A stretch of 64,000 nt of DNA from Sulfurimonas sp. RIFOXYD12_FULL_33_39. GTDB taxonomy: Bacteria > Campylobacterota > Campylobacteria > Campylobacterales > Sulfurimonadaceae. This document shows, piece by piece, positions 3,611 through 61,106 of the stretch. The DNA lies in assembly GCA_001829785.1 (NCBI GenBank), contig MICF01000007.1, forward strand, positions 124,001 through 188,000, given 5' to 3'. The notes beneath the pieces were generated by a model, which saw only the letters and a list, made by a program, of their open reading frames with translations, had not been told where the DNA came from and searched no databases. Made by a program: the position numbers and the translations under genes. The first letter of the stretch is position 1, and every line of letters starts with the position of its first letter.

Positions 3611-5198
3611 TTTTAAATTCATTTATACTAGAATCAAGCGAGTTCGCAACTTCGAGCAGACTTTTAGAATCATTTTCTATACTAAGTACTCTCTCTTTGT
3701 TTGAAGTTGATAGATTGTTAATTTCCGAAATTTTGCTTATGATTTCATCAGTGTGTTTTACAATAGTCTCAGAATCATTGACAGACTGTATTGCCACTTC
3801 AATAGAGTGTCTCATTTCATACGATGTGTCGTTTATTTTTTCTTCAACATCTTTAGATATAGCCGTAAGTTTTTCCATTCCTTTTGCATTATTATTCATT
3901 TTATCGCTAACATCATTGATTGATTGAACAATAGTGCTTACACTAATCTCTATCTCTGAAAGCGATTTTTGCGTTCTCTCTGCAAGTTTACGTACTTCAT
4001 CTGCAACGACTGCAAAACCGCGACCGTGTTCTCCCGCACGAGCAGCTTCAATAGCGGCATTAAGAGCAAGAAGATTAGTCTGTTCTGCTATATCTTTAAT
4101 AACAAGTAAAACACTTTTTACCTGATCTGCATCTTGTTTTAAGTGAGACAGTTGACTTGAGAGATCGTTTTCTACCTCTATAAACGAGTCAACTTCGTTG
4201 ACCAGTTCATCAAGCGCTTTTTTTGATGACTCAAGATTTTCATTTGCCAGTGAAACTTTTTTCTGTGTTTCTCTAGCCATCTCTATAGATTTATCAAGAA
4301 TATCTTTTATAGATTTACTTTTATGTGTAGTGTCAGAGACAATTATACTTTCATTCTCTATGCTTTCATGAATAGAATAAGACGCTTTTGTAATTGTATT
4401 TGCAATTAAAACATTTCTACTTCCAAGAGATTTTACATCATTAATTGTATTTTGTATAGCAGCAACAAAGTCATTAACTGCGTATGCGGATTCTGCAAAC
4501 TCATTTTTTTGTACTATTTCAATTCGTCTAGTTAAATCTTTATCTCCGTCAACAAGTGCACGAATACGAGCACGAAGTTCATCTAAAGGTGCAAGAACCT
4601 CTTTTTTAAAAAACATACTAATTATAATTGCAAAAGCTACAAATACTATAATTAGAGTTATTAATAAAATCATTTTTGTATTATCAATCTCTTTGTCATT
4701 AGAATCAAGAGAGATAACAAGATTCATAACACCCAGTATATCGCCTACTTTCGCATTAGCATGACAGGATAAACATGTATTCTCGGCTACCATAGGATTA
4801 AGAAGTTGAATTGAGTGGTGCTCGGCATCTTTCTTTTCAATTGTTCTTGATTTTTTTGTAGCAAATATCTCTTTAATTAATGGGTCATTTGTAAAAGTTT
4901 CACCATCTTGTTTATATAGTTCTAATACAATTTCAGATTTATACACGTCAAGTAAATCAATTCCGTTGATATTTTTCGCCTTACTTAGTGTCTCTTCAAC
5001 AACTTTTGGGTCACCTGATAACATACTCTGAGTAACTGTTTGAAATATAGATTGGCTCAACATTTCCAGAGACTGCTTTGCTGTTTTATTTGAAAAATCA
5101 TTAAAAGTATAAGATATATAACTATACATAGAAACTATTGCGAGAGCGCCAAAAAATAGAATTGTAATTATAATGCGAGATTTTACAGTTGCTAACAT
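3606..5198 (-). CDS. Methyl-accepting chemotaxis protein with CxxCH (probable c-type haem) sensor domain
   Basis: A 530-residue transducer. A membrane segment lies at about residues 9-30, a periplasmic domain at about 31-175 and a second membrane segment at about 176-197. A HAMP region (about 200-255) and the cytoplasmic signalling domain follow; its hairpin tip includes [20 protein letters not shown]. The periplasmic domain carries C142-L-S-C145-H146, a c-type haem-attachment motif, in a context resembling the Tll0287-like/DUF3365 sensor family. A haem there could sense redox state or a gas ligand; this is inference. No C-terminal CheR/CheB pentapeptide is evident. The gene is transcribed alone, 147 bp downstream of recO. 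Confidence 0.9.
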
Positions 5199-48788: not shown

Positions 48789-49508
48789 TTACTTTAGTAT
48801 ATATGCGATTTTAACCTTAAATTTTTTAGGAAAATCAAATAGCGTTTTTTCAATTTCAATTGGAAAACTGTTCTCTATTGCCTCTGTAGCTGATTTTTCA
48901 AAAATATTTTTGCCTGAGACCATTTTTATATAATCTACATTTCCATCTGCTAGTATAATAAACTCTACTTCAATAGTATCTTGAATAGACCTTCTTCTAG
49001 CAGTATGAGGATATGATTTATTCTCATTTATTCGTTTGATTAAATTTTGGATAAATATCTCTCTATCTCTCTCTTTTGTATCATTTTGCACTACTTTATC
49101 TACATGTGGAATAGGTTTTTTATCTTCTATATGCTTTTTTTGTATCGGTTCTTCTTGAGTTTTTTGAACATGTTTTGGCTCGGCTTGCTCTACAACAGGC
49201 TCTTTTTTAAGTGGTGTCGGAGTAGGTTTTTTTTCAATCGGTTTTGAAATTTGTTTTTTCTCGGTAGGTTTAGTAAGAGGCTCTTTTTTAATAGGTTTTA
49301 AAATCTCCTCTTTTTTTATCTCTGTTGCTTGTGAAATTATAGAAAAATTAATTTTTTGAATTTTTTCGACTTTGTGATTTTTGTCATTATCATCTTTTTT
49401 TATTATAAAAAAGTAAAAGAGAGACGCTCCTACAAATGTGTAAAATATAGTGCTGATAATAAATGAGGAGAGATATCTGTTCATATTAAACTTTATTCTC
49501 ATATTCAT
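48789..49508 (-). CDS. tonB: TonB energy transducer
   Basis: A 239-residue protein. A single N-terminal membrane segment (about 12-34, STIFYTFVGASLFYFFII) is followed by a Lys/Pro/Glu-rich periplasmic spacer (about 60-145, repeats like KPIEKKPTPTPLKKEP) and a C-terminal TonB domain (about 160-239, EVEFIILADGNVDYIKMVSG). It carries ExbBD energy to the outer membrane receptor. Starts at 49508 and at 49484 (MNRYLSSF, one base after the activator stop) are both possible; neither has a strong binding site. It is last in the receptor-to-TonB run, so probably dedicated to it. Confidence 0.88.
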   Translation of the reverse strand: MNMRIKFNMNRYLSSFIISTIFYTFVGASLFYFFIIKKDDNDKNHKVEKIQKINFSIISQATEIKKEEILKPIKKEPLTKPTEKKQISKPIEKKPTPTPLKKEPVVEQAEPKHVQKTQEEPIQKKHIEDKKPIPHVDKVVQNDTKERDREIFIQNLIKRINENKSYPHTARRRSIQDTIEVEFIILADGNVDYIKMVSGKNIFEKSATEAIENSFPIEIEKTLFDFPKKFKVKIAYILK

Positions 49509-50292
49509 AAGACTCTAACGCCAATATTGCCGCTCCGTATGAGGTTGTGATTTGCGGAAACTCCGGGATAAATATCTTTTTACCGAGTTCATTCTCAATA
49601 GCATGAACTAAACCGTTATTTAGAGCCGGTCCTCCATCAAAGTAGATGCCTTCGTTTATACCTACTCTTTTTACTAGTTTTATAATTCTTTTTGCAATTG
49701 AGTAGTGAACTCCTGCGACGATATCTTCAATACTGTGGTCATTTCCTAGTAGTCCTATTATCTCTGACTCTGCAAATACGGCACATGTACTATTTATTGC
49801 AAGCGGCGTACCTTGTGATTTGAAGTGATATTCGCCTAACTCATCAACCTCTATCTCTAAATTCATGGCAACAACATCCAAAAACTTTCCAGTTCCTGCC
49901 GCACATCTGTCATTCATAGCAAAATTTACTACATTTCCCTCATCGTCCAACGAGATGGCTTTAGAGTCCTGACCGCCTATATTTATGATAGTTTTGATAT
50001 TGCATTTACCCTCAGCCGCAGCTATTGCACCCATTGCATTTGCGGTGATTTCGCTTATATTTTCGTCTGCTTCTTTAAAAAGTTTTCTTCCATAACCGGT
50101 TGCAACCGTATAGAGTAAATCTTTTTCATCAATATTTAGCTCATCGAGCATCTCTTTGAGTGCCTGTTTTGCATATTTGTAAAACATACTTCCACTCGCA
50201 CTGATTTTATGACCTGCTAATTTTTTACTCTCATCAACAATAGCAATTTTAATTGCCGTTGAACCTATATCTATTCCTGCAAAATAGCGCAT
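49486..50292 (-). CDS. ATP-dependent activator of a 2-hydroxyacyl-CoA dehydratase/double-cubane-type protein
   Basis: A 268-residue ASKHA ATPase of the BadF/BadG/HgdC family. The phosphate loop is GIDIGSTAIKIAI, with IINIGGQDSKAI and FDGGPALNNG following. Two cysteines (C130 in NDRCAAGTGK, C170 in NSTCAVFAE) would hold the [4Fe-4S] cluster at the dimer interface. These proteins use ATP to drive electrons to very low potential in their partner, here the gene directly upstream, whose stop it overlaps by one base. Confidence 0.9.
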   Translation of the reverse strand: MRYFAGIDIGSTAIKIAIVDESKKLAGHKISASGSMFYKYAKQALKEMLDELNIDEKDLLYTVATGYGRKLFKEADENISEITANAMGAIAAAEGKCNIKTIINIGGQDSKAISLDDEGNVVNFAMNDRCAAGTGKFLDVVAMNLEIEVDELGEYHFKSQGTPLAINSTCAVFAESEIIGLLGNDHSIEDIVAGVHYSIAKRIIKLVKRVGINEGIYFDGGPALNNGLVHAIENELGKKIFIPEFPQITTSYGAAILALESYEYENKV

Positions 50293-51557
50293 TATCCTCT
50301 CCTTTTTCTATTTTTAAGCGACTCTACAAATGCTTCAATTCTAGTTGTTAGTTGCCCAGACTGGCTTGGAGAGTAGTCGCTCTCAAGATAGAGTATAGGT
50401 ATCTGAGCCTTTTGCATTGCTTCTAAAACAGAGCGTTGTTCCATCTCATACACCTGACAACCTGCAAACGCCTGATATATTACGCCATCAGCCTTATAAT
50501 CTCTAACTAAGTCTATTATTCTTCTTTTTCTATCACTGTTTTTAGTAAAGATAGGGCAGGTGCAACCTTTGAGGTATCTATCTGCGATAGAATCAATCAT
50601 ATCGTTTACAAACCACTCATCAACGCTTATCATGTCGTTAAACATTCTATTTGACGAACATGTCTCATCGGCTACGATTATGGCGTCAGATTGCTCTATT
50701 AAAAGGGGTATTTTTAGATTTGGAAATATCGGCGGCGAACCGGTATAGACAATTCTAGGGCTCATTTTTGATGCCGCATTTACCTGAGTTTCTACTCTTT
50801 GCTCACACTCCTGCACAAGATTTTCCATGGCATCTATCCAGTTGTCTATCTTGTCAAAAAAGAATGCGTTAGTAACTAAAAACATATCTTTACCTAAGAT
50901 AGGGGAGGCGGTATTTTTTCGCAAAATATTCAGCTTATGGTATAAATGTTGGGCATAACCAACTTTTTTAATTGACTCTTTAAGACTCTTTTTTGTCAGC
51001 TTTTTATTAAGGTCTATCGATAAATCTTTTGTAAATTTTCTAACACTTCTTCTCCAATACTCTCTACTCTCATGGCTCTCTTTGGTACGCGGAAACTCCA
51101 TGTCATAAACACTAAATCCCATGCCTTCTATAATCGCACCAGACTTTGCTTTTTGATCACATGTAGTAGGAGATATGATAACATCGGGCTTGTCAGAGAA
51201 GTTATTTGATGCAAACTGCCCAACGGTTGCTTTTACCAAAGGGCATGATTTTGATGGGAGCAGGTCGCTTCCTATCTCATCGTCCGTATAAAAACCATTG
51301 CATAGTCTAAGCGGAACAGCGTCAAGCGCATAGATTATCTCTGATGGAACTTGAATACACATCGTTCCCACTTTTGCTTTGTCCACATGTAAAGACTCAT
51401 GTTTGCAGTTTACTCTCTCATAAAGATCATAAAAGTAGCTCATTGCGCGAGGAGGCTCTTTAAAGTTGTGCTTTATTTTTTCTAGTACACTTGCTGCTTC
51501 CATCGCTTTATGGCGGTTTTGTCTCTCTCTTGATGTTTCTATTTTATGTTCAGTCAT
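50292..51557 (-). CDS. 2-hydroxyacyl-CoA dehydratase D-component/double-cubane cluster protein
   Basis: About 421 residues of the HgdB/YjiM family. Cysteines fit the cluster ligands: C67 (GTMCIQVPSE), C86 (VPLRLCNG), C105 (SKSCPLVKA), C133 (TTCDQ), with later ADETCSSNR and FAGCQVYEME. A single polypeptide plus activator, without a second dehydratase subunit, is the arrangement of double-cubane [8Fe-9S] reductases, so true dehydratase activity is less likely. ATG 51557 has GGAG about seven bases upstream and overlaps the polyferredoxin stop. The substrate is unknown. Confidence 0.85.
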   Translation of the reverse strand: MTEHKIETSRERQNRHKAMEAASVLEKIKHNFKEPPRAMSYFYDLYERVNCKHESLHVDKAKVGTMCIQVPSEIIYALDAVPLRLCNGFYTDDEIGSDLLPSKSCPLVKATVGQFASNNFSDKPDVIISPTTCDQKAKSGAIIEGMGFSVYDMEFPRTKESHESREYWRRSVRKFTKDLSIDLNKKLTKKSLKESIKKVGYAQHLYHKLNILRKNTASPILGKDMFLVTNAFFFDKIDNWIDAMENLVQECEQRVETQVNAASKMSPRIVYTGSPPIFPNLKIPLLIEQSDAIIVADETCSSNRMFNDMISVDEWFVNDMIDSIADRYLKGCTCPIFTKNSDRKRRIIDLVRDYKADGVIYQAFAGCQVYEMEQRSVLEAMQKAQIPILYLESDYSPSQSGQLTTRIEAFVESLKNRKRRG

Positions 51558-52530
51558 CTTTTTTCTCCAGCTTATCCATCTGCATTCTTTTTGCAAAACC
51601 GCCTTTTGTCGAGCTAAATAGTTTCATATTTAAAATATCTACATGTAGAGCATCATCCTCGGGACATGCCGCCACACACTTCATACAAAGGATGCAGTCG
51701 TCTCTTAATATATTTGTACTTTTTACATCATCGGCTATATCTTTTATCTGCATATCGCATACATTGTAACAATCGCCGCATTTTGTACATTTGTCACCAT
51801 CTTTTTTAAGTTTTAAAAGTGCAGCGTCGCTAAATATATAGTGCATTGCACTCATTGGGCAAAAAAAACAGAAAAATCTTTTTTTAACAAACGAGCCGAT
51901 AACAAATAACCCTGTAAAAATCAGACCCAAAGTAGTTAAAATCATTGCTGTTTTTGTAGAAAAATCAAGACTCCACTGAGAAACATCTCCCACAAAAAGA
52001 GGTGTTATCATCCTACCTGGGCAAATTTCACAAAATGCCGTTCTCCACTCGCCGCCGAGGATTCCCATACCAACACCCATAGGTGCTAAAATTACTAAAG
52101 CGAGCATTATGTACTTTATTTTTTTGAGCTTATCAAACTGTGGTTGTGTATATGTGCTGTAGCGGATGCCCATTTTTTTACGCAAACCTGTTAGCCAATC
52201 CTGCATAGTACCAAGCGGACAAGCATAACCGCACCACGCTTTGTTAAATACAACAAACCACAATAAAAAAGTTATAAAACCGATAAGAACAGATATACTT
52301 GCCGCACTAAAAAGCACATCCAAGGGGCGTGCCAGCTGATGTTGAAGCGGCAAGAAATAGCACATTCCGCCTACTTGTCTATCGTATCCGCATGAAAATA
52401 CAGGTATGCTGTTTCCTAGATTAATAGCAAAATATCCGCCGTATATAAAAAGTACAAAGAAGAAGAGTTGAAGCCAAAAGCGAAATCTTCTAATGTCGGC
52501 TCTGTTTATAAAATCTCTAATTCTCTTCAT
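51550..52530 (-). CDS. NapH/CcoG-like membrane polyferredoxin
   Basis: A 326-residue membrane protein. About four hydrophobic segments (near 18-38, 75-95, 140-160, 195-213) carry CxxxCP-type motifs: C100GYAC104P, C167EIC170P, C221FFC224P. Two [4Fe-4S] ferredoxin motifs follow: C248TKCGDC253YNVC258 and C279ILCMKC285VAAC289P. NapH relatives pass electrons from menaquinol toward periplasmic partners, and CcoG reduces copper. ATG 52530 is the start, with AAGGAGG about eight bases upstream. It overlaps the genes on both sides, showing a tight operon. Confidence 0.88.
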   Translation of the reverse strand: MKRIRDFINRADIRRFRFWLQLFFFVLFIYGGYFAINLGNSIPVFSCGYDRQVGGMCYFLPLQHQLARPLDVLFSAASISVLIGFITFLLWFVVFNKAWCGYACPLGTMQDWLTGLRKKMGIRYSTYTQPQFDKLKKIKYIMLALVILAPMGVGMGILGGEWRTAFCEICPGRMITPLFVGDVSQWSLDFSTKTAMILTTLGLIFTGLFVIGSFVKKRFFCFFCPMSAMHYIFSDAALLKLKKDGDKCTKCGDCYNVCDMQIKDIADDVKSTNILRDDCILCMKCVAACPEDDALHVDILNMKLFSSTKGGFAKRMQMDKLEKKDD

Positions 52531-54886
52531 CAAAACGTACCTCCTTAAAAGGTTTTTCCCGTCTTGTTCTGTACATGTAAATAACAAATCCGCTAATTAT
52601 CATAATCAGTACAGCCGCGGATAAGCCATACGCATAAGATTTATATCCGCGTTCATTTGGGTAATAATAAGAGGGGTAGGTTGCACTATAATTTATTTTT
52701 TGATATTGGCGCTCATTATCTACCCCTGATACATCTTTTACATAAGATGCACTAAGTAAAAATTCATTTTTATATCTTTTGTTAAATTCATTCCAGTTTG
52801 GAAAATAGTCTTCTATAAGCGTAAAAGTTGCAACTCCGTTTTTGTCCGTTTTTAGAGTTTTAGACCAGAGAGTTTTTGTAGATAGTGTTACGTCTGCACC
52901 CTCAATTGCCTCCTCTTCAAGTACTACTTTAACTCTTAACTTTTTGCCTGAGTATAGAGCGTGAAAAAAAGTTTCATCATCCTCTCTTACTCTTAAGATA
53001 TCAAAAGGAGCCTCTTTTATCGTGTGTGCATCCATCTTCTTTTTGTCATAGATAGCATAGTTGCTATGGTTAAATCTCAAAAACTCATATTTTGCCGTCG
53101 TTATATAGAGTGTGTTATCTTTAACATCTTTATTGACGTAAAAAAGATTGTAGTATCCGTTGTCAGGCATCTCAAAAGTTACCGATTTGCATCCTGCATC
53201 TTTTGATACCGTTGCCTCTTTGGTATTTAAGTTTGCATCAAGCAGATAAAGCTTTGCTTCTAGGGCACCTAAACAATTTTTTTTGCCCTCTGCATCTTCA
53301 AAAACAGGCCATACCTCTTTTGTAGCGACTCTGCCTCTTGCTCCGCCGTGACTGTGTCCGCCGCCGTAAGATTTTTTTTCTGCAGTAGGATTTATTTCAG
53401 AAAAATAGATAGTGTCACTGAATTCAGGCTTTATAAAAGTGGGTAAATCTTGTTTCTCTGATTTTTTGTTAACTCTCTCAACACCTCCATGACTTGCGTG
53501 TCCGTTTGATGCCTTGCCGTAAGTTTTAAAGATATAGCCGACGTACATGTTAACTGCTAGAAAAAAGATAATCAAAGATGCGGCAAACGGAAAAGCGGCT
53601 ATTTTTCTTAATCTGCTAACATCAAGAAGTTTTACTCTTTTATATAAAATAATTAAAGCCCAGATTATAGCAACCCATTTTAGCAAATCAAATACATGTA
53701 ACCAGCCATCGCCTCTGTTTGCTAAAGGAGCGACGTCAAGCGTAAATCCAAAACCGTAAGCAAACCCTTCTGCAATATGCTCGTAGCCTTTGAGAAAAAA
53801 CATCTCAAACGAATGAGCGATTGAGCCGAGTATAAACAGAGGTGCATAAGAGTATCCTAAGTCGTAAAATACGGTATTAAAATCTTTTTTTAATATTTTT
53901 GCCGCTATAAACATACCGATAACCGCCGCTAAAATAGTAAAAATCAGCGCATATACAAATGCAAACAGACCTATAGGGTCAATAGCGCCAAAGTCTATAT
54001 AATGTTTTAAAAATTCGGCTGTTTTTGACCATATCATGTCGCCTGCCGCATTACTTCTTCCTATGCCGTGATGAAAAGACATAGTTATTGAAATTGATGC
54101 CAATATAAGTATAAATGCCCAAACTTCTGCTTTTAGGACTTGAAACTTTGAAAATAGAGAAAACGAGGGGTTTTTATACTTAAAACTAACAGCTTCACAT
54201 GCGCTGCTGCAGTCCATACACAGAGTACAGTCAGTCATAGAATTTCTGTTATCAAACGTAAAAGGTTTTAGGTTATATGGACATGCCGTCGCACACTCAA
54301 AGGTTCTACAATCATTGCAAGCACTTTTATATGTTCCGAGCCATGTAAAAGAGAGTTTAGAATAAGCGCGTGTAAGTGTTCCGATAGGGCAGATATATTT
54401 GCAATAGCTCATATCTTTATAGAGAAAGTAAACTATAAAAGCGATGAGTGTCATTACCGCAAATAAAATTGCAGTTCCAAGTGGAGTTCTAAAAAGGTTC
54501 GGGAACATGTAATATACTCCCCACCATCCAAACACAAGCAAAAATACGCCTATATATCTGTTTTGAAGCCATTTTGGCATAGTTTTTTTAAGTCCGTATT
54601 TTGTTATATATTTTCCCATAAATCCGTGAGGACAGATGCCGCAAAATATTCGTCCAAATGTAGGAAGAGTCAGAACCATAAACAAAGACCAAAATATTCC
54701 CCAAAATACGGCGGTTGTAAAAGTATTTTCTTTACCTGTATGTGTAAATCCGAAATATAGAGCATATAAAAAAAGCATAGAGATTGCTATTTTTAATATT
54801 GTTAAAAATTTTTGATTTTTAAACAAAACCCCCAGTAGAGGTTTTGCATATATATCATCTTTATCACGTTTTATAAAATTTACCAT
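52517..54886 (-). CDS. Large membrane polyferredoxin with His-rich loop and DUF4198-like periplasmic domain
   Basis: A 789-residue protein. The N-terminal part is NapH/CcoG-like: membrane segments near 30-48, 55-75, 112-130 and 137-156 with C82GIC85P and C162KYIC166P, then cluster motifs at C190/C193/C198/C202 and C220/C223/C226/C230. More membrane segments lie between about 255 and 455. A His-rich stretch follows (NGHASHGG at 461-468, GGGHSHGG at 508-515). Then comes a beta-rich domain (about 520-745, GADVTLSTKTLWSKTLKTD) resembling DUF4198-type metal-uptake domains, and a final membrane anchor. Metal handling is an inference from these motifs. Confidence 0.8.
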   Translation of the reverse strand: MVNFIKRDKDDIYAKPLLGVLFKNQKFLTILKIAISMLFLYALYFGFTHTGKENTFTTAVFWGIFWSLFMVLTLPTFGRIFCGICPHGFMGKYITKYGLKKTMPKWLQNRYIGVFLLVFGWWGVYYMFPNLFRTPLGTAILFAVMTLIAFIVYFLYKDMSYCKYICPIGTLTRAYSKLSFTWLGTYKSACNDCRTFECATACPYNLKPFTFDNRNSMTDCTLCMDCSSACEAVSFKYKNPSFSLFSKFQVLKAEVWAFILILASISITMSFHHGIGRSNAAGDMIWSKTAEFLKHYIDFGAIDPIGLFAFVYALIFTILAAVIGMFIAAKILKKDFNTVFYDLGYSYAPLFILGSIAHSFEMFFLKGYEHIAEGFAYGFGFTLDVAPLANRGDGWLHVFDLLKWVAIIWALIILYKRVKLLDVSRLRKIAAFPFAASLIIFFLAVNMYVGYIFKTYGKASNGHASHGGVERVNKKSEKQDLPTFIKPEFSDTIYFSEINPTAEKKSYGGGHSHGGARGRVATKEVWPVFEDAEGKKNCLGALEAKLYLLDANLNTKEATVSKDAGCKSVTFEMPDNGYYNLFYVNKDVKDNTLYITTAKYEFLRFNHSNYAIYDKKKMDAHTIKEAPFDILRVREDDETFFHALYSGKKLRVKVVLEEEAIEGADVTLSTKTLWSKTLKTDKNGVATFTLIEDYFPNWNEFNKRYKNEFLLSASYVKDVSGVDNERQYQKINYSATYPSYYYPNERGYKSYAYGLSAAVLIMIISGFVIYMYRTRREKPFKEVRFDEEN

Positions 54887-54899
54887 TACTTTCCTTTTT

Positions 54900-55559
54900 T
54901 TAAAGTTTTAAAATACCGTTAAACACAAGCAAACCTACCGCTATAAGCAGTAGTGCCGCAACTCGTTCTATGTGAAGTTTGTAGGATGAGAACTGAATCA
55001 TCATCCCTTTAATAAATTTAGATACTATAAATCCGTAAAACAGAATTGAAAACATTACGGCTCCTAGACCAAAAAACAGACCGAGTCCTATAGTGTTATA
55101 GATATTGCTGCTGTTTGCGGCAACTCCCAAAAGTGCCATTATCGGAGCACAAGGGTTTATTGACATTGTTGCACCGATAGTAAAGAAGCCAAACTTATTT
55201 AACTTAGGTTTCTTTATTATGGGTGTAGCGTGCCCACATGAGTATGTAGGTTTAAAACTTTTATATAGTAAAAAAAGACCCATTCCTACAGTGCTTGTCC
55301 CAAGAATTAAGCCAAATAGAGAGTTGTCATCGAGTATCTGCTTTACCCAAGAAGAGCTAAGATACGCGACAACTGCTAAAAATGTATAACTAACAATTCT
55401 TCCAAGACTAAAGGGCAAAATAACATGTAAAGCCTCTTTTGTACCGTTTGAATTGTTAACAAGCAACGGTGTTAAAAATGGCATACATGAGAACATACAT
55501 GCAGTAGCTCCGTAAGAGAGACCTATTATAAAAATAGATAAAAAAGCGGCATTTTCCAT
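54900..55559 (-). CDS. TauE/SafE-type (DsbD-like) membrane protein
   Basis: A 219-residue protein with about six hydrophobic segments. Cysteines are placed in membrane segments (ATACMFSCMPFLTP near residue 20, INPCAPIMALLG near 136), like the DsbD/CcdA-related sulfite exporter TauE/SafE group. Relatives next to cytochrome oxidase assembly genes handle copper or thiol reduction. The histidine-cysteine segment YSCGHATPI is in a loop near 107-115. It lies 13 bp upstream of the large polyferredoxin and 10 bp after exbD. Confidence 0.75.
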   Translation of the reverse strand: MENAAFLSIFIIGLSYGATACMFSCMPFLTPLLVNNSNGTKEALHVILPFSLGRIVSYTFLAVVAYLSSSWVKQILDDNSLFGLILGTSTVGMGLFLLYKSFKPTYSCGHATPIIKKPKLNKFGFFTIGATMSINPCAPIMALLGVAANSSNIYNTIGLGLFFGLGAVMFSILFYGFIVSKFIKGMMIQFSSYKLHIERVAALLLIAVGLLVFNGILKL

Positions 55560-55569
55560 AATCGCTCTC

Positions 55570-55947
55570 TTAATCTTTTTTTGTGATTATTCCAAGGTTT
55601 GTAAAGTTCTTCTCTTTTAGAGTATCAAGAAGGATTACAAAAAAATCAAACTTCGCATCTTTATCACAATTTATATAAATTGGCATATCCGTTTTGTATT
55701 TGCATAGTTCTGCTTCAATATCTTTTACAAAAATGAGCGTTTTATCAAATAAAATATCACCGTTTTGTTTTATTGTAATAGTTAGATTTTTTTTATCATC
55801 TTTTGTCGCACTTTTTGAGCTAGGAAGGTCAACAGGAATAAGCCCCTTTGCCACAAAAGTTGCTGTTGTTAGAACAATCACAAGAAGAACAAGCATAATA
55901 TCGATAAACGGTACTACGTTGATGGAATCAAATTTTTTAATTTGCAA
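55570..55947 (-). CDS. exbD: ExbD biopolymer transport protein
   Basis: About 125 residues. One N-terminal membrane segment carries the essential Asp in NVVPFIDIMLVLLVIVL, followed by a periplasmic domain (TIKQNGDILFD). It forms the proton-driven motor with ExbB and TonB. I prefer TTG 55947 because AAGGAAAAA lies just upstream and the protein then starts at the normal family length. The frame is open to 55986, but that would extend 50 bp into exbB. The TTG start overlaps the exbB stop. Confidence 0.88.
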   Translation of the reverse strand: MQIKKFDSINVVPFIDIMLVLLVIVLTTATFVAKGLIPVDLPSSKSATKDDKKNLTITIKQNGDILFDKTLIFVKDIEAELCKYKTDMPIYINCDKDAKFDFFVILLDTLKEKNFTNLGIITKKD

Positions 55948-56380
55948 GTTTTTCCTTTTGATGTATATCCCAATAAGCCAAAACAACCTCGATTTTTCTA
56001 GCTAAATGGTTATAAAACACGGTTGCAGGAATAGCTACCAAAAGACCCATTGCAGTAGCTTTTAGTGCAAGAGCCAAAGACGTCATAATCATTTTAGCAT
56101 CCAAGGTATCACTCTGACCCATTGCATAAAAGGTAATAATTATCCCAAATACCGTTCCTAAAAGACCGATATATGGAGCATTAGAACCAAATGTCGAGAT
56201 TATGTTAATATTATTCGTAAGAGCAATTTCAAGCTCCTCTTTTGTCTTAAAATTGCGCACGTCTATTGCTTTGTAAAATAGAAGTCGCTCAATCCAAAAC
56301 CAAAAAGCCATAAAACTCATAACTCCCAAAAGTCCTATAATCCCATAATCAACAATATCTTTAAGTAGTTCTATATTCAT
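55937..56380 (-). CDS. exbB: ExbB biopolymer transport protein
   Basis: A 147-residue protein with three membrane segments (about 12-32, 65-86, 105-126) and family sequences APYIGLLGTVFGIIITF and LALALKATAMGLLVAIPA. It is the short ExbB form common in Campylobacterota. With ExbD it harvests proton-motive force for TonB. It starts 20 bp after the receptor gene on the minus strand. Confidence 0.93.
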   Translation of the reverse strand: MNIELLKDIVDYGIIGLLGVMSFMAFWFWIERLLFYKAIDVRNFKTKEELEIALTNNINIISTFGSNAPYIGLLGTVFGIIITFYAMGQSDTLDAKMIMTSLALALKATAMGLLVAIPATVFYNHLARKIEVVLAYWDIHQKEKLAN

Positions 56381-56400
56381 ATATCTGCCTAATATTTATA

Positions 56401-58596
56401 TTAAAATTTAACCGACAATCCTGCTGTATATACTCTTCCGGCATTAACCGTAATAGACAAATCTTCGGCATTGAAAACACCGTCTTCATTTCTATCGCCG
56501 CTTGATCTTGCAGTGCTGTAATAACTTTTGTCAAAAACATTGTCAATTCTTGCAAAGAGGTTATACTCATAATCGCCTATTTTGTTACCGTAATTTGCAA
56601 GTAGATTTAGAGTTGCTTGTCCGGGGATTTTAATCTGATTTAAATCATCTGCATAATATTCTGATTTTGCATTAATTTCAGTTGATAATTTTAGATTTTT
56701 CATCGGCAAATAGTCTAAAATAAGGTTTACTTGATGTTTTGAAGTTCTAGGAATTTGATTGCTTGTTACATTATAAAACGTAAGATTTGATAAATAAGCG
56801 CTACCGTCTAAATCAATACCGAAATTGTCATATTTTGTATAATACGCATCAAGGTAAGTATATGCAAGGTTAAACGATAATTTATCCGCTGCTTTTCCCT
56901 CTGCTGAAAGTTCTAAACCTCTATGTCTAGCACCTCCTACATTATCCCACATGTCGGTATTTGTATTGTTAGCAGAACCGTAATTTCCTGATGTTTTCAT
57001 GATAAAGTCATCTCTATCAATTTGAAAAATTGCAGCTTCATAATTAACTTCGTTAAATCTAGTTCTGACTCCTATCTCATAGTTATAAGATTTTTCAGGA
57101 TCTAAATCAGGGTTGTTTTGAGTATATCCCCAACTACTCGTACTTCCTGCATATAATTGAGCAACGGTCGGTGCTCTAAAACCTGTTGAGTAATTTGCAA
57201 AAATATCAAAATTATCAACTATTTTATAGTTAGCACCTATTCTATATGAGTAAATTTTGAAATCCTCTTTGTAGCTGTTATTGCGATAATCTTCATAATC
57301 AAGTTTGATTAAATCATATCTAAGATTTGCGGTAGCACTTAGATTTTGCGTAAGTTGTTGTTTGTACTCACCGTAAATTGCATAAACATTTTCGTTCGTT
57401 GTATCATCACTCTTTTTATCTCCTGCTAGATAATAATCAGGTGTTACCGTTCTAATACCGCGCGGATATGAAACTAATGCTTGATTTACTCTATATGTAG
57501 ATTTATTTTCATATGTGTTATCTCTTAAATCTAAACCTAAAAGTGCTGCAGATTGATTTGAAGAAGTACGATATTCACTCTTTATACCTCTTTGTATCTG
57601 TGCATAATCGTTATCGTAAGTATAATCGCTATCATCTAAAGACGGATCTGAAATCCCGCTGCTGTTTTGTGTTTGAGGTGATGACATGTACATAGTGTCA
57701 TCAGTGTAAACATATCCGTTTACAAGTAAGTTTGAACTACTGTCAAAATCTTTTGAGTAGGTAAGAAATAGTTTTAAAAGATTAACATCATAATCTCTTG
57801 TATAATCCCTACTTTTTTGATCTCCGTCATAAATTGATTTAGGATTTGTTTTTGCAGCACTCTCGCCGCCTACCGTTCCGTGCGTATCTTTTGTTCTATC
57901 TGAATACTCAAATCCAAACGTAACATCCGACGTATCGTCTATGTAGTACTGCAACTTACCGTTTAGATATTTTGCCACACTTCCTGAATCTTCCCAGTAT
58001 CCGTCAGTCTCTTTTTTGCTGGCTTGCAAATGAAAACTCAAATCGTCATTCGCATAACCGCTTCTAGCTAATAGCTTTTGATAACCGAAACTTCCAAATT
58101 CAACTGCACCGAAATTGTTGTTATATTTTGCACCTTTTTTCGTCGTAATGATTACTGCACCTGATAGCGCATCATCCCCAAACAGATAGGAAGCACCACC
58201 CTTTACAACTTTAATGCTCTCGATATTGTCAAGGTCAATATTTACACTTCCGGTTCTCTCAAAAACAGGTACACCGTCAATTACAATTGCAACACCAGGT
58301 TTTTCACCCATGTACATCTGATTTTCAACGCCGCGAAGATGAATTTTTACACTATCGCCTGATTTTACCTCTGTTGTTACACCTGGGATTGATTGTAAAA
58401 TCTGTTGTATATTTTCAGTGTGTGCCATATCGACACTCTCACCGCTTATAGTTGTAGTTGTTGACACCTCTGTTTTTTTTGTATCAAACTTACTGTCAAT
58501 GGTTGATGATTCAACCTTTATGGTTCCTAAATCAGATGCCGCAACATTGCTAATTGCCAATGCGCATATCACGGATAAATAGATTTTCTTATTCAT
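56401..58596 (-). CDS. TonB-dependent outer membrane receptor
   Basis: A 731-residue protein. A signal peptide spans about residues 1-20 (SVICALAISNVAAS). The plug domain follows (IQQILQSIPGVTTEVKSG; IVIDGVPVFERTG; IESIKVVKGGASYLFGDDA), then a beta barrel with SYNYEIGVRTRF and ending in aromatic GLSVKF, a normal barrel C-terminus. No signalling extension or cobalamin or siderophore hallmark is evident, so the ligand is unknown. It heads the run that ends with tonB. A promoter with 11-bp direct repeats lies upstream. Confidence 0.93.
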   Translation of the reverse strand: MNKKIYLSVICALAISNVAASDLGTIKVESSTIDSKFDTKKTEVSTTTTISGESVDMAHTENIQQILQSIPGVTTEVKSGDSVKIHLRGVENQMYMGEKPGVAIVIDGVPVFERTGSVNIDLDNIESIKVVKGGASYLFGDDALSGAVIITTKKGAKYNNNFGAVEFGSFGYQKLLARSGYANDDLSFHLQASKKETDGYWEDSGSVAKYLNGKLQYYIDDTSDVTFGFEYSDRTKDTHGTVGGESAAKTNPKSIYDGDQKSRDYTRDYDVNLLKLFLTYSKDFDSSSNLLVNGYVYTDDTMYMSSPQTQNSSGISDPSLDDSDYTYDNDYAQIQRGIKSEYRTSSNQSAALLGLDLRDNTYENKSTYRVNQALVSYPRGIRTVTPDYYLAGDKKSDDTTNENVYAIYGEYKQQLTQNLSATANLRYDLIKLDYEDYRNNSYKEDFKIYSYRIGANYKIVDNFDIFANYSTGFRAPTVAQLYAGSTSSWGYTQNNPDLDPEKSYNYEIGVRTRFNEVNYEAAIFQIDRDDFIMKTSGNYGSANNTNTDMWDNVGGARHRGLELSAEGKAADKLSFNLAYTYLDAYYTKYDNFGIDLDGSAYLSNLTFYNVTSNQIPRTSKHQVNLILDYLPMKNLKLSTEINAKSEYYADDLNQIKIPGQATLNLLANYGNKIGDYEYNLFARIDNVFDKSYYSTARSSGDRNEDGVFNAEDLSITVNAGRVYTAGLSVKF

Positions 58597-58628: not shown

Positions 58629-58661
58629 AGTATAATAACTAAGTGTTAATTTTGTGTTAAT
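58629..58661 (-). promoter_or_regulatory. Receptor promoter with two 11-bp-spaced direct repeats
   Basis: On the minus strand TATACT (complement of 58629-58634) is a good -10 element. In plus-strand reading GTGTTAAT occurs at 58643-58650 and again at 58654-58661, exactly 11 bp apart, covering the -35 region. Such tandem same-phase repeats are typical of response-regulator or activator sites. No Fur-like palindrome is present. Confidence 0.5.
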
Positions 58662-58788: not shown

Positions 58789-58872
58789 TGGTACCTGCGG
58801 GCGGACTCGAACCGCCACAACTTGCGTTAGCGGATTTTGAATCCGCCGTGTCTACCATTTCACCACGCAGGC
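58789..58872 (-). tRNA. tRNA-Leu(CAA)
   Basis: On the minus strand an 84-nt cloverleaf including encoded CCA. The acceptor stem is GCCTGCG with CGCAGGT (first pair G-U), the anticodon stem-loop is GCGGA-TTCAAAA-TCCGC with anticodon CAA, and the variable arm is extended (AAC-GCAA-GTT), as in class II tRNAs. The T arm is GGCGG-TTCGAGT-CCGCC. It reads UUG. Confidence 0.96.
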
Positions 58873-59024: not shown

Positions 59025-61106
59025 GTGAGAATTACAAGCGGTATGTACTATAAAAATATATATAGTGATAATAATTCGCAGTTGACGAATAGTCTTTTTA
59101 ATGTAAATAAGCAAATAGCATCTGGATTAAAGATTCAATATGCAAAAGATGATGTAAGAATTTTTACCGAAACTATGAGGCTAGATAATGAGATAGCAAC
59201 GCTTGGACAGATAAAAAGTAGTACTAAAAATGCTATAAAGATGTCGGATCAGTCAGATATTGTTTTAAATGAGTTTGAAACTACGATGAACCGTGCAAGA
59301 ACGCTTTTTTTAACTGCTGCAAATGAAACAAATAGTGCAACATCGCTTGATGCGATAGCAAAAGAGTTAAGAGGAATTGAATCTAATTTTAAAAACTTGG
59401 CAAATACATCTATAAATGGACAATATATATTTTCAGGTTCAGCGCTTAGCACAAAGCCTATTTCTAGCAGCGGTGAATATATGGGAAATGATGCCGTATT
59501 AAAAGCATTTACAGGCTCAAAAACTTCACAACAATACAATATAAGCGGTAAAGAGCTTTTCTTTGGAGAACAAAAGTTAGTAAACAGAGAAGTTACTACA
59601 AATGTTGTTCAAAGCAGTTTAAGCGCTAGATATCCAGACTTTACCGATTCGACTGTTACCGGAGGAAACTCTACTATAATGCCAAGCGATACTATTCGTG
59701 ATTTAATGGGTGATGCAGACAATGTCGTTGATGCTGTAAATTTTAAACACTATTTTTATGTAAGAGGTACAAATAGCAGCGGGGATTCATTTTCGCAAAA
59801 AATCAGTATGCGAGATGATGACAATGTTGATGATCTTTTGACTCAAATTGGCAATCTTTACGGAAATACACCAAATTTAAAAGTTGTTGATGTCGGTATG
59901 AATTCAAATGGACAGATTGTAATAACAGACAAGATTAAAGGTTCAAGTAAGCTTGATTTTCATATGGTCGGTGCAACGGATTTAAGCGGCGGTGCTGCTG
60001 CTAATGTAACGAATATAGATGATTTGGGAGTTGGAGAAACAGATTTTAGTAAAATTATGTTAGGAACTTCTACGGCAACAAACACTTCGCTACATGTAAA
60101 AGAGTTTATAAAATCTTCACTAACATCTGCAGATAGCGTTGCTGCAACAAATATTATAGACGGTACTATTTATGATAGAGTAGAGTTTGCCCAAAACGGT
60201 GCAAGATTATCCTCGAGTACTCCACAAATAGTAAAAGGTACAAATGCGTTTGCAACGCCTTCTACAAAGATTTCTGATGTAGCTACTTCCGGCACGCTAA
60301 ACGGCACATCATTTACACTAGAAGGGACAGATGTAAACGGAGCGGCTTATAGTGCTCAAATTGATTTTGCTACTGCAGGTTCAACATTTACGGTCGGTGC
60401 TAATACATATGATATTTTTAATATGGAATCTCCAAGAGCGGCTGTTGATGCAGATGAGATGACATATGCTCAGTTAATGGATGTTATGAATATGGTTGTA
60501 ACCGGCAACCTTCCTGCAGCAGCTCCCGGTTCATCGGCTCAGTATGACACGGCTATTGCGACATCCGATTTAAGAGGAAAAACATTTTTAAGTTATGACG
60601 GAAAAATAGGTTTTGAAGAGATTGGTACCGGAAATACTACAGCAAAAATAGCATTGTATGACTCAAACAGCGGTGATTTTTCTGCAGCATCGTCTGTCAT
60701 GACATTTAATACTAACAATGCTATAACAGTAAGAGATCCTAAAACAGATTTTTTTAAAACTTTCAATGAGATGATTACTGCCGTAGAGAATAATAAAAAT
60801 TATCCAGATAGCAGTTCCGGTGATATAAGAAATGTAGGTGTAGAAAATGCGATTGCTATGATGGATGACCTTCAAGACAGTATCTTTAGAGCACACTCTA
60901 AAATAGGATCACAAACAAATGCTCTAAATATGTCTATAGAGAGAACTGAAATATTAGAAATTGGTTCAATCAGCCTTAGGTCATCAGTCGTAGATACTGA
61001 TTTGGCAGAAGCTGCATTGACGCTAGCGCAATTAGATACAAATTATAAAGCAATGCTCTCAAGTGTTAGTAAAATTTCACAATTAAGCTTAGTGAACTAT
61101 CTATAA
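59025..61106 (+). CDS. flgL: Flagellar hook-filament junction protein FlgL
   Basis: A 693-residue flagellin-family protein. The N-terminal helical domain (MRITSGMYYKNIYSDNN; VNKQIASGLKIQYAKDD) and C-terminal helical domain (ALTLAQLDTNYKAMLSSVSK) are conserved. The roughly 450-residue middle is variable and surface exposed, making the protein much longer than enteric FlgL (about 317). The GTG start follows GGAGG about seven bases upstream. It is a single gene, read from a sigma-54 promoter and ending in a strong hairpin. Confidence 0.92.
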   Translation: MRITSGMYYKNIYSDNNSQLTNSLFNVNKQIASGLKIQYAKDDVRIFTETMRLDNEIATLGQIKSSTKNAIKMSDQSDIVLNEFETTMNRARTLFLTAANETNSATSLDAIAKELRGIESNFKNLANTSINGQYIFSGSALSTKPISSSGEYMGNDAVLKAFTGSKTSQQYNISGKELFFGEQKLVNREVTTNVVQSSLSARYPDFTDSTVTGGNSTIMPSDTIRDLMGDADNVVDAVNFKHYFYVRGTNSSGDSFSQKISMRDDDNVDDLLTQIGNLYGNTPNLKVVDVGMNSNGQIVITDKIKGSSKLDFHMVGATDLSGGAAANVTNIDDLGVGETDFSKIMLGTSTATNTSLHVKEFIKSSLTSADSVAATNIIDGTIYDRVEFAQNGARLSSSTPQIVKGTNAFATPSTKISDVATSGTLNGTSFTLEGTDVNGAAYSAQIDFATAGSTFTVGANTYDIFNMESPRAAVDADEMTYAQLMDVMNMVVTGNLPAAAPGSSAQYDTAIATSDLRGKTFLSYDGKIGFEEIGTGNTTAKIALYDSNSGDFSAASSVMTFNTNNAITVRDPKTDFFKTFNEMITAVENNKNYPDSSSGDIRNVGVENAIAMMDDLQDSIFRAHSKIGSQTNALNMSIERTEILEIGSISLRSSVVDTDLAEAALTLAQLDTNYKAMLSSVSKISQLSLVNYL

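Follow-up and report, generated by a model that had tools for sequence, protein, structure and literature searches.

Why should a TonB-dependent import system share one operon with membrane polyferredoxins and a double-cubane iron-sulfur protein that comes with its own ATPase activator? The question is raised by nine consecutive genes on the minus strand of a 64,000-nucleotide stretch of Sulfurimonas sp. RIFOXYD12_FULL_33_39 (GenBank assembly GCA_001829785.1, contig MICF01000007.1, positions 124,001 to 188,000; hereafter the window, to which coordinates refer unless a locus is named), taken from a genome of 2.34 Mb. We propose that the operon encodes an acquisition and utilization system for a metal, most likely copper, in bacteria of low-oxygen habitats, in which the metal would be reduced in the periplasm with electrons passed from the double-cubane protein to the polyferredoxins; we give this reading a probability of roughly 0.48. 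The more specific proposal, held tentatively, is that the double-cubane protein acts as an ATP-driven pump of electrons toward the periplasm by way of a polyferredoxin, thereby stripping a tightly bound metal, probably a copper chelate or sulfide, delivered by TonB-dependent import.

The biological function of double-cubane proteins was stated to be unknown in 2025, in the available part of one report (PMC11971306), and the double-cubane cluster protein (DCCP) is named in the accessible text of a study of CO-dependent transcription in Calderihabitans (PMC7306483). If the proposal is true, it would give a double-cubane protein a physiological role for the first time and add to metal uptake a reductive step driven by ATP, and it could show how sulfidic, low-oxygen bacteria obtain copper locked in sulfides or chelates for cbb3 oxidase and N2O reductase. 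Because the gene surroundings of one double-cubane clade stay the same across several phyla, a role in metal acquisition is directly testable.

Conservation of the gene grouping

Scanning public genomes with an alignment of the double-cubane (HgdB-type) protein of the operon yielded 71 loci, mostly from Campylobacterota, together with three methanotroph contigs, other gammaproteobacteria, Rhodocyclaceae, Bryobacterales and Bacteroidota. Neighboring genes were counted by tblastn, the denominators being the loci with enough flanking sequence among these 71 and among 20 controls, which were hand-picked from the top of a list of 44 places encoding ordinary DCCPs of the same phylum, with some taken from lower down. 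The locus samples are not independent, with near relatives over-represented and several of the loci L180-L250 repeating genomes of the G-numbered set.

A preliminary description of this DNA had named rare adjacency of the pieces in other genomes as a finding that would speak against a single system; the pieces are in fact adjacent. A NapH-type polyferredoxin gene lies upstream of the double-cubane gene, always within 500 bp, in 56/56 clade loci, and the part encoding the DUF4198-fold domain lies within 2.8 kb upstream in the same proportion (56/56), each against 0/20 controls. NapH is the partner without which the double-cubane gene of the clade was never seen. The second polyferredoxin, nosN, was found upstream in 34/56 loci, and the activator gene follows downstream in 66/69 clade loci and in all 20 controls. 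A gene for a DsbD_2 protein is present in 36/40 clade loci (controls 0/19), and in 36/40 a TonB-dependent receptor (TBDR) gene lies no more than 6 kb away, irrespective of strand (controls 1/19); within the same distance, exbB, exbD, tonB and an RND gene occur in 11, 11, 10 and 11 of 40 clade loci, respectively. The nine-gene set is thus grouped above chance. One locus labeled Petrimonas (L206), whose HgdB nests within the Campylobacterota and which is probably a binning error, was kept in the counts.

A second set comprised 40 loci around homologs of the 789-residue fusion protein, chosen from 151 genomes of the home family, with and without hgdB. The genes of the operon recur in these loci, a frequent order being TBDR-exbB-exbD-DsbD_2-fusion-NapH-HgdB-activator-RND-tonB; in four loci (L040, L041, L042, L045) exbBD are placed at the far end, behind a separate box. 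Three clusters without an hgdB of their own, preceded by the box, have the order TBDR, DUF4198-like protein (~272 aa), NapH (333 aa) and tonB (L124, L138, L195), with DsbD_2 also present in L124 and L195; in the NapH of such clusters the first cluster motif is followed by CP, and in NapH proteins linked to hgdB by CD. Other hgdB-free loci (L048-L051, L055, L056, L059, L061) combine a nosN protein of 475-610 aa with a TBDR and mostly tonB; some nosN clusters of this kind include a ~1027-aa RND pump, the nosN-RND-TBDR modules being those of L048-L051, and in L059 and L060 nosN is followed by a NosL-like domain (by Pfam for L060). Because NapH modules without hgdB exist (L124, L138), hgdB looks like an add-on. 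In a locus from Methylococcaceae (L229), a gene for an extracytoplasmic function sigma factor (4443-5024 of that locus) lies two genes before the receptor, and the locus runs into OEP, HlyD and RND genes.

Organization of the operon and its gene products

Families were assigned by Pfam and NCBIfam searches of the nine translations, and further evidence is given with each feature.

58641..58660, minus strand: operator-like box with a promoter-like site (pattern searches)
56401..58596, minus strand: TBDR of the outer membrane, 731 aa (Pfam, NCBIfam, structure-homolog match, alignment)
55937..56380, minus strand: exbB, 147 aa (Pfam; NCBIfam exbB2 above cut-off)
55570..55986, minus strand: exbD, 138 aa with the called TTG start, a later true start being probable (Pfam, NCBIfam)
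54900..55559, minus strand: DsbD_2-family membrane protein, 219 aa (Pfam, alignment)
52517..54886, minus strand: fused polyferredoxin/DUF4198-fold protein, 789 aa (Pfam, alignment, AlphaFold, structure match)
51550..52587, minus strand: NapH-type polyferredoxin, 345 aa with the called TTG start (Pfam, NCBIfam, alignment)
50292..51596, minus strand: HgdB/DCCP-type protein, 434 aa from TTG, the true start possibly being an ATG 13 codons inside the called frame (Pfam, NCBIfam, profile match)
49486..50292, minus strand: BadF/BadG-type ATPase activator, 268 aa (Pfam, NCBIfam, alignment)
48789..49508, minus strand: tonB, 239 aa (Pfam, NCBIfam)

The genes run from the receptor (58596) to tonB (48789), each lying 10-20 bp from the next or overlapping it, and all reading frames are present in the order and place given in the preliminary description. 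Its family names likewise stand by Pfam and NCBIfam, except that the protein called TauE/SafE belongs to DsbD_2 and the 789-residue protein is a two-part fusion.

The TonB set is complete above Pfam cut-offs, comprising the barrel and plug of the receptor (PF00593, 170 bits; PF07715, 66 bits), ExbB (102 bits), ExbD (87 bits) and the C-terminus of TonB (PF03544, 44 bits). The best NCBIfam match of the receptor is the generic siderophore-receptor model TIGR01783 (206 bits, below the cut-off of 223.5), its nearest solved structures among the matches listed are YncD/PqqU, and its plug residues H86 and M96 are kept in 53-54 of 56 homologs. In the DsbD_2 protein (PF13386, 69 bits), four cysteines (C21, C25, C108, C137), which we take to sit as they do in CcdA, are kept in 60-61 of 65 rows, some of which are possibly an unrelated EF-hand-like gene (L229).

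The HgdB-type protein (PF06050, 316 bits) scores 338.4 bits with the double_cubane model NF040772, below its cut-off of 350, and was therefore filed as a DCCP-type sister clade. Its profile matches the DCCP structures 7yyl and 6eno at E ~1e-77. The ligands of the [8Fe-9S] cluster of BzdN (C36/73/100/263/293/327), as given in the available part of PMC11971306, align with C80, C118, C146, C313, C347 and C380, all six of which are invariant in 15 homologs, and conservation across the body of the protein is strong, with a mean column identity of 74%. A tree built from 66 clade sequences and 20 ordinary DCCPs parted the two groups with 100/100 support, although long branches on both sides call for caution. 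The nearest named relatives are on Campylobacterota contigs, the closest, labeled Sulfurimonas, at 88% identity. An HgdB match was found in 30/151 home-family genomes, of which 29 were counted as clade, including a contig-end fragment with the DUF4198 part on the same contig (G015), and one as ordinary (G082, E 1.9e-74). The activator matches PF01869 (194 bits) and TIGR00241 (233.5 bits), and all 11 aligned rows keep its C130 and C170.

The 789-residue protein consists of a NapH/NosR-type membrane polyferredoxin with 12 invariant cysteines (residues 1-470) and a DUF4198-fold domain ending in a transmembrane-like helix (residues 481-789); the domain probably faces the periplasm. The DUF4198 match is weak in Pfam (E=0.002), and the PF10670 score is 18.8 in the window protein and 29.6 and 32.5 in two relatives (L038, L068), against a gathering score of 34, for which reason we use the label DUF4198-fold and claim no Pfam membership. 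The assignment rests on structure: the AlphaFold model of the domain (mean pLDDT, the predicted local distance difference test score, of 89.3; 43 homologous rows) matches Zcp entries with bound Zn, Cu or Co at Z 17.0-17.6 and a Ni-bound DUF4198 protein at Z 15.5, over 186-203 residues. No PDB structure was matched at E<=0.001 by the model of the 474-residue polyferredoxin (pLDDT 81.6), nor at E<=0.1 by phmmer with the whole 789-residue protein; neither result is proof of a new fold. As to NosR features, there was no Pfam match to a flavin mononucleotide-binding domain, and the NosR model, which has a cut-off of 1000 bits, scored 24-27. The 345-residue protein has two C-terminal four-cysteine motifs, which, by analogy to NapH, presumably face the cytoplasm, as well as CxxxCP/CxxCP motifs and a conserved C66/C76 pair. 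Its NCBIfam matches were NapH and NosR models, with no CcoG model among the best 25 of 27 families, in a library that we take to contain one.

Downstream of tonB (48721-46277, minus strand), flgA (by Pfam) is followed by flavoprotein-, coaD- and tmk-like genes (by eye). The 67-bp gap between tonB and flgA holds no terminator-like site among those listed, and four weak sites of this type on the operon strand lie within the operon, at a frequency near that of shuffled DNA. A tRNA-Leu (CAA) gene (58789-58872, minus strand) lies between the promoter region of the operon and a flagellar-type gene at 59025.

A direct-repeat box and its other targets

The receptor gene is preceded by a box, TTAACACAAAATTAACACTT, with two TTAACA units at a spacing of 11 bp. 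The box overlaps the first hexamer of the promoter-like site, the second hexamer of which is TATTAT; promoter-like sites in the window are no more frequent than in shuffled sequence. The direct-repeat pattern TTAACAYAAAATTAACACTT occurs with <=2 mismatches in 30/36 TBDR upstream regions and in none when reversed, and the exact degenerate pattern occurs in 75/151 home-family genomes, against 1 with the reversed control. Forty regions were fetched from box matches and inspected for downstream genes. In three of them (L109, L111, L123) the box precedes a DsbD_2 gene, after which come ccoN and other genes of the cbb3 type, assigned by Pfam in L111 and by eye and gene length in the others; in four (L126, L127, L129, L131) it precedes a NosL gene followed by genes for an FtsX-type permease and an ATPase-like protein, with NosL assigned by Pfam in L126, L127 and L131 and FtsX in L127. 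A 782-residue gene product after the cbb3 genes, considered as a copper ATPase, proved to be a PD-(D/E)XK nuclease. Other matches precede lone receptors or, at about 200-320 bp, a pair of bd-type-subunit-like genes with a C-terminal cytochrome c domain (L113, L118, L120, L128, L145-L147), whose bd match, in the locus tested (L128), is under the Pfam cut-off. In the genome of the window no other convincing target was found: with <=3 mismatches there were 6 matches, one of them exact and belonging to the operon, versus 10 with the reversed pattern.

No Fur-like box matching either of two Fur consensus strings was found upstream of the operon. The best matches over the 36 upstream regions reached 11-13 of 19 and 10-12 of 15 positions, with 12 and 10 in the window, and were judged near chance for AT-rich DNA, without a comparison with shuffles; Fur regulation of the operon was accordingly rejected. 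Genes resembling an OmpR-type regulator and a kinase adjoin the receptor in L061 and L044 (by eye and blastp), and in L186 a histidine kinase was confirmed, the 227-residue product of the gene beside it likely being the regulator.

Identity of the metal

We regard copper as the most likely metal because of NosL domains, the box common to cbb3 and NosL operons, and a copy of the set within a nosZ cluster. A NosL domain forms part of the fused protein in 14/71 loci (blastp labels), with a Pfam score of 55 bits in L038 (cut-off 24), and a shorter relative without hgdB (L060) is likewise fused to NosL (52 bits). In L186, L191, L193 and L203, NosL genes (by Pfam for L191 and L203) also lie upstream of the receptor but in the opposite orientation, with four genes between NosL and receptor in L186. 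In L235, SCO1/SenC (143 bits) follows the set. In one Bacteroidota locus (L247) a same-strand run comprises a nosZ-like gene (464 bits, under the cut-off), nosZ (672 bits; cut-off 625), a small cytochrome-c-like gene, a further gene, NosD (115 bits), another gene and two TBDR genes, then the set itself (DUF4198 part, NapH, HgdB, activator), and finally NapG-like, NapH-like, ATP-binding cassette (ABC) ATPase, NosL-like (21.6 bits, under 24) and ABC2 membrane-protein genes. The nosZ beside this copy raises the weight of copper, as well as that of a role in enzyme maturation, and lowers that of iron. In region L290 (G504:C29:56000-75500), the two nosZ-type genes, one under the NosZ family cut-off, stand in tandem and head the Bacteroidota cluster with the hgdB set.

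Several findings weigh against copper uptake. Within the home family the presence of nosZ is not linked to that of the set (13/29 hgdB genomes vs 44/122 others), on which ground a tie to N2O reductase alone was rejected there. The set occurs in only 5/201 methanotroph genomes, which weakens a link to methanotroph copper as a general rule, and NosL was scored in only 5/10 distant hosts; those lacking a score are three methanotrophs, a Bryobacterales host and the host of L247, in which the NosL-like gene stays under the cut-off. No His, Cys or Met of the DUF4198 domain is conserved at 90%, and in the available parts of three reports DUF4198 proteins are associated with nickel or belong to iron clusters (PMC12537917, PMC12004947, PMC8238504). 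A FUR-family gene and an ABC ATPase gene follow the set in one gammaproteobacterium (L234:14113-15415), possibly as a zinc uptake operon. A few box matches precede no sensible gene (L119, L121, L144), and oxygen, not copper, may be the signal for cbb3 promoters. Finally, reduction of Cu(II) does not in itself need an ATP-driven potential. Among the distant hosts, a nosZ match was found in 6/10, over the cut-off in 4/10, with no control set. The five home-family genomes with two full nosZ copies (G064, G071, G073, G093, G007) all carry the hgdB set.

Proposed mechanism and alternative explanations

Gene order and its conservation, the domains, the cluster ligands and the box are directly observed; which metal is moved, how electrons travel, what ATP is for, what the DsbD_2 protein does and that an RND pump recycles the chelator are inferred. 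A chelated metal would cross the outer membrane through the receptor, energized by the TonB-ExbB-ExbD complex encoded in the same operon, and would be met in the periplasm by the DUF4198 domain, together with NosL where this is present. The two membrane polyferredoxins may then carry cytoplasmic electrons to the metal or its chelate, and the reduced metal would be freed for periplasmic copper enzymes. The neighboring NapH-type polyferredoxin would draw low-potential electrons from the double-cubane protein once this has been charged by its ATP-splitting activator; as an add-on, the HgdB-activator pair could feed a periplasmic metal reductase of the NapH type with electrons at a potential below that available from quinol. 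The DsbD_2 protein may move thiol reducing power or metal across the inner membrane, and the RND pump in the operon of some relatives could send back the emptied chelator. Pfam identified no inner-membrane permease among the nine genes, and none would be needed if the metal is used in the periplasm, in cbb3 and NosZ. Import followed by reduction, as the preliminary description had suggested, thus remains the best-supported reading, with its unspecified metal narrowed to copper as the most likely one; the gene context held no pointer to azide, acetylene or hydrazine as the natural substrate.

The same links to copper enzymes could signify maturation rather than uptake, the set providing electrons and metal-binding domains for the assembly of periplasmic copper enzymes such as cbb3 and NosZ, with the receptor merely topping up the supply. 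The position of the set within a nosZ-NosD cluster in L247 and its ties to NosL, SCO1 and ccoN agree with this view, as does the argument, in the accessible part of the report, that Bordetella CrpH serves copper use over acquisition (PMC13038864). Such a role is nevertheless unlikely given the TBDR within 6 kb in 36/40 loci, partly with exbBD and tonB alongside, and the lack of tracking with nosZ in the home family. We consider it rather improbable that the architecture is as proposed and the metal is iron. Some ferric siderophores have very low potentials, and the reduction of very stable ferric chelates in the periplasm would explain ATP-driven electrons; the receptor scores best against a siderophore-receptor model, albeit under its cut-off, and DUF4198 in PepSY/TonB clusters has been proposed to take part in iron reduction, according to the available parts of PMC8238504 and PMC12004947. 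Iron is opposed by the absence of a match to the two Fur consensus strings, by the cbb3 and NosL operons among the partners of the box, and by the NosL fusions and the nosZ cluster of L247.

Alternatively, the double-cubane enzyme might destroy the organic part of an imported metallophore in the cytoplasm, for instance at an N-O, N-N or isonitrile group, and so free the metal, with the polyferredoxins serving a separate step. The strong conservation of the HgdB protein body would suit such an enzyme, yet no inner-membrane importer for the chelate was identified in the operon and the constant link to a membrane polyferredoxin (56/56) would be left unexplained, so that we judge this quite improbable. 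That unrelated genes merely share an operon can hardly be credited: flgA and other genes continue on the same strand, which makes a shared strand in itself little proof, but synteny extends over Campylobacterota, gamma- and betaproteobacteria, Acidobacteriota and Bacteroidota, and the control counts are zero or close to it.

Comparison with known systems

The preliminary description knew of no described system with this composition. None was found among the titles listed from the open-licence literature, subscription journals and preprints being outside this scope, and among the same titles we saw no paper linking a TonB or copper system to a double-cubane protein; related designs have, however, been published. 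The window protein resembles DCCP and its activator (PDB 6eno, 7yyl) in fold family by sequence, in the six cluster cysteines and in the adjoining activator gene. From ordinary DCCPs of the phylum it differs in forming a separate clade and in standing beside NapH and DUF4198 genes. The release of iron from pyoverdine by FpvG-type systems is similar to the proposed system in combining TonB-dependent import, reduction in the periplasm and recycling of the chelator, whereas the reductase and pump components are unrelated.

Similar in design is the copper acquisition system CrtA-CrpH of Bordetella pertussis, in which, according to the available parts of the two reports, a TonB receptor and a putative membrane reductase share one operon, which in some cases also holds exbBD-tonB and copper chaperones, with a tie to heme-copper oxidases and no Fur site (PMC12914433, PMC13038864). 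The reductase in that case is a PepSY_TM protein, and the same parts name no polyferredoxin, DsbD_2 or double-cubane protein; conversely, no Pfam match to PepSY was found in the nine window proteins up to E 0.1. PepSY-like flavinylated DUF4198 clusters, as far as the accessible text describes them, pair a secreted DUF4198 protein with a transmembrane electron carrier, some of them with TonB, and are proposed to reduce and assimilate metal (PMC8238504); they differ in the carrier family, in iron regulation and, within that text, in the absence of a double-cubane protein. The cupric reductase CcoG is likewise a membrane iron-sulfur protein with ferredoxin-like motifs that serves copper delivery to cbb3, but in the part of the report available it is a single protein with no tie to a TonB receptor (PMC8267372), and the window proteins match NapH models. 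In its logic, the operon thus appears to resemble CrtA-CrpH, the PepSY/DUF4198 clusters and CcoG, while it is apparently built from different parts.

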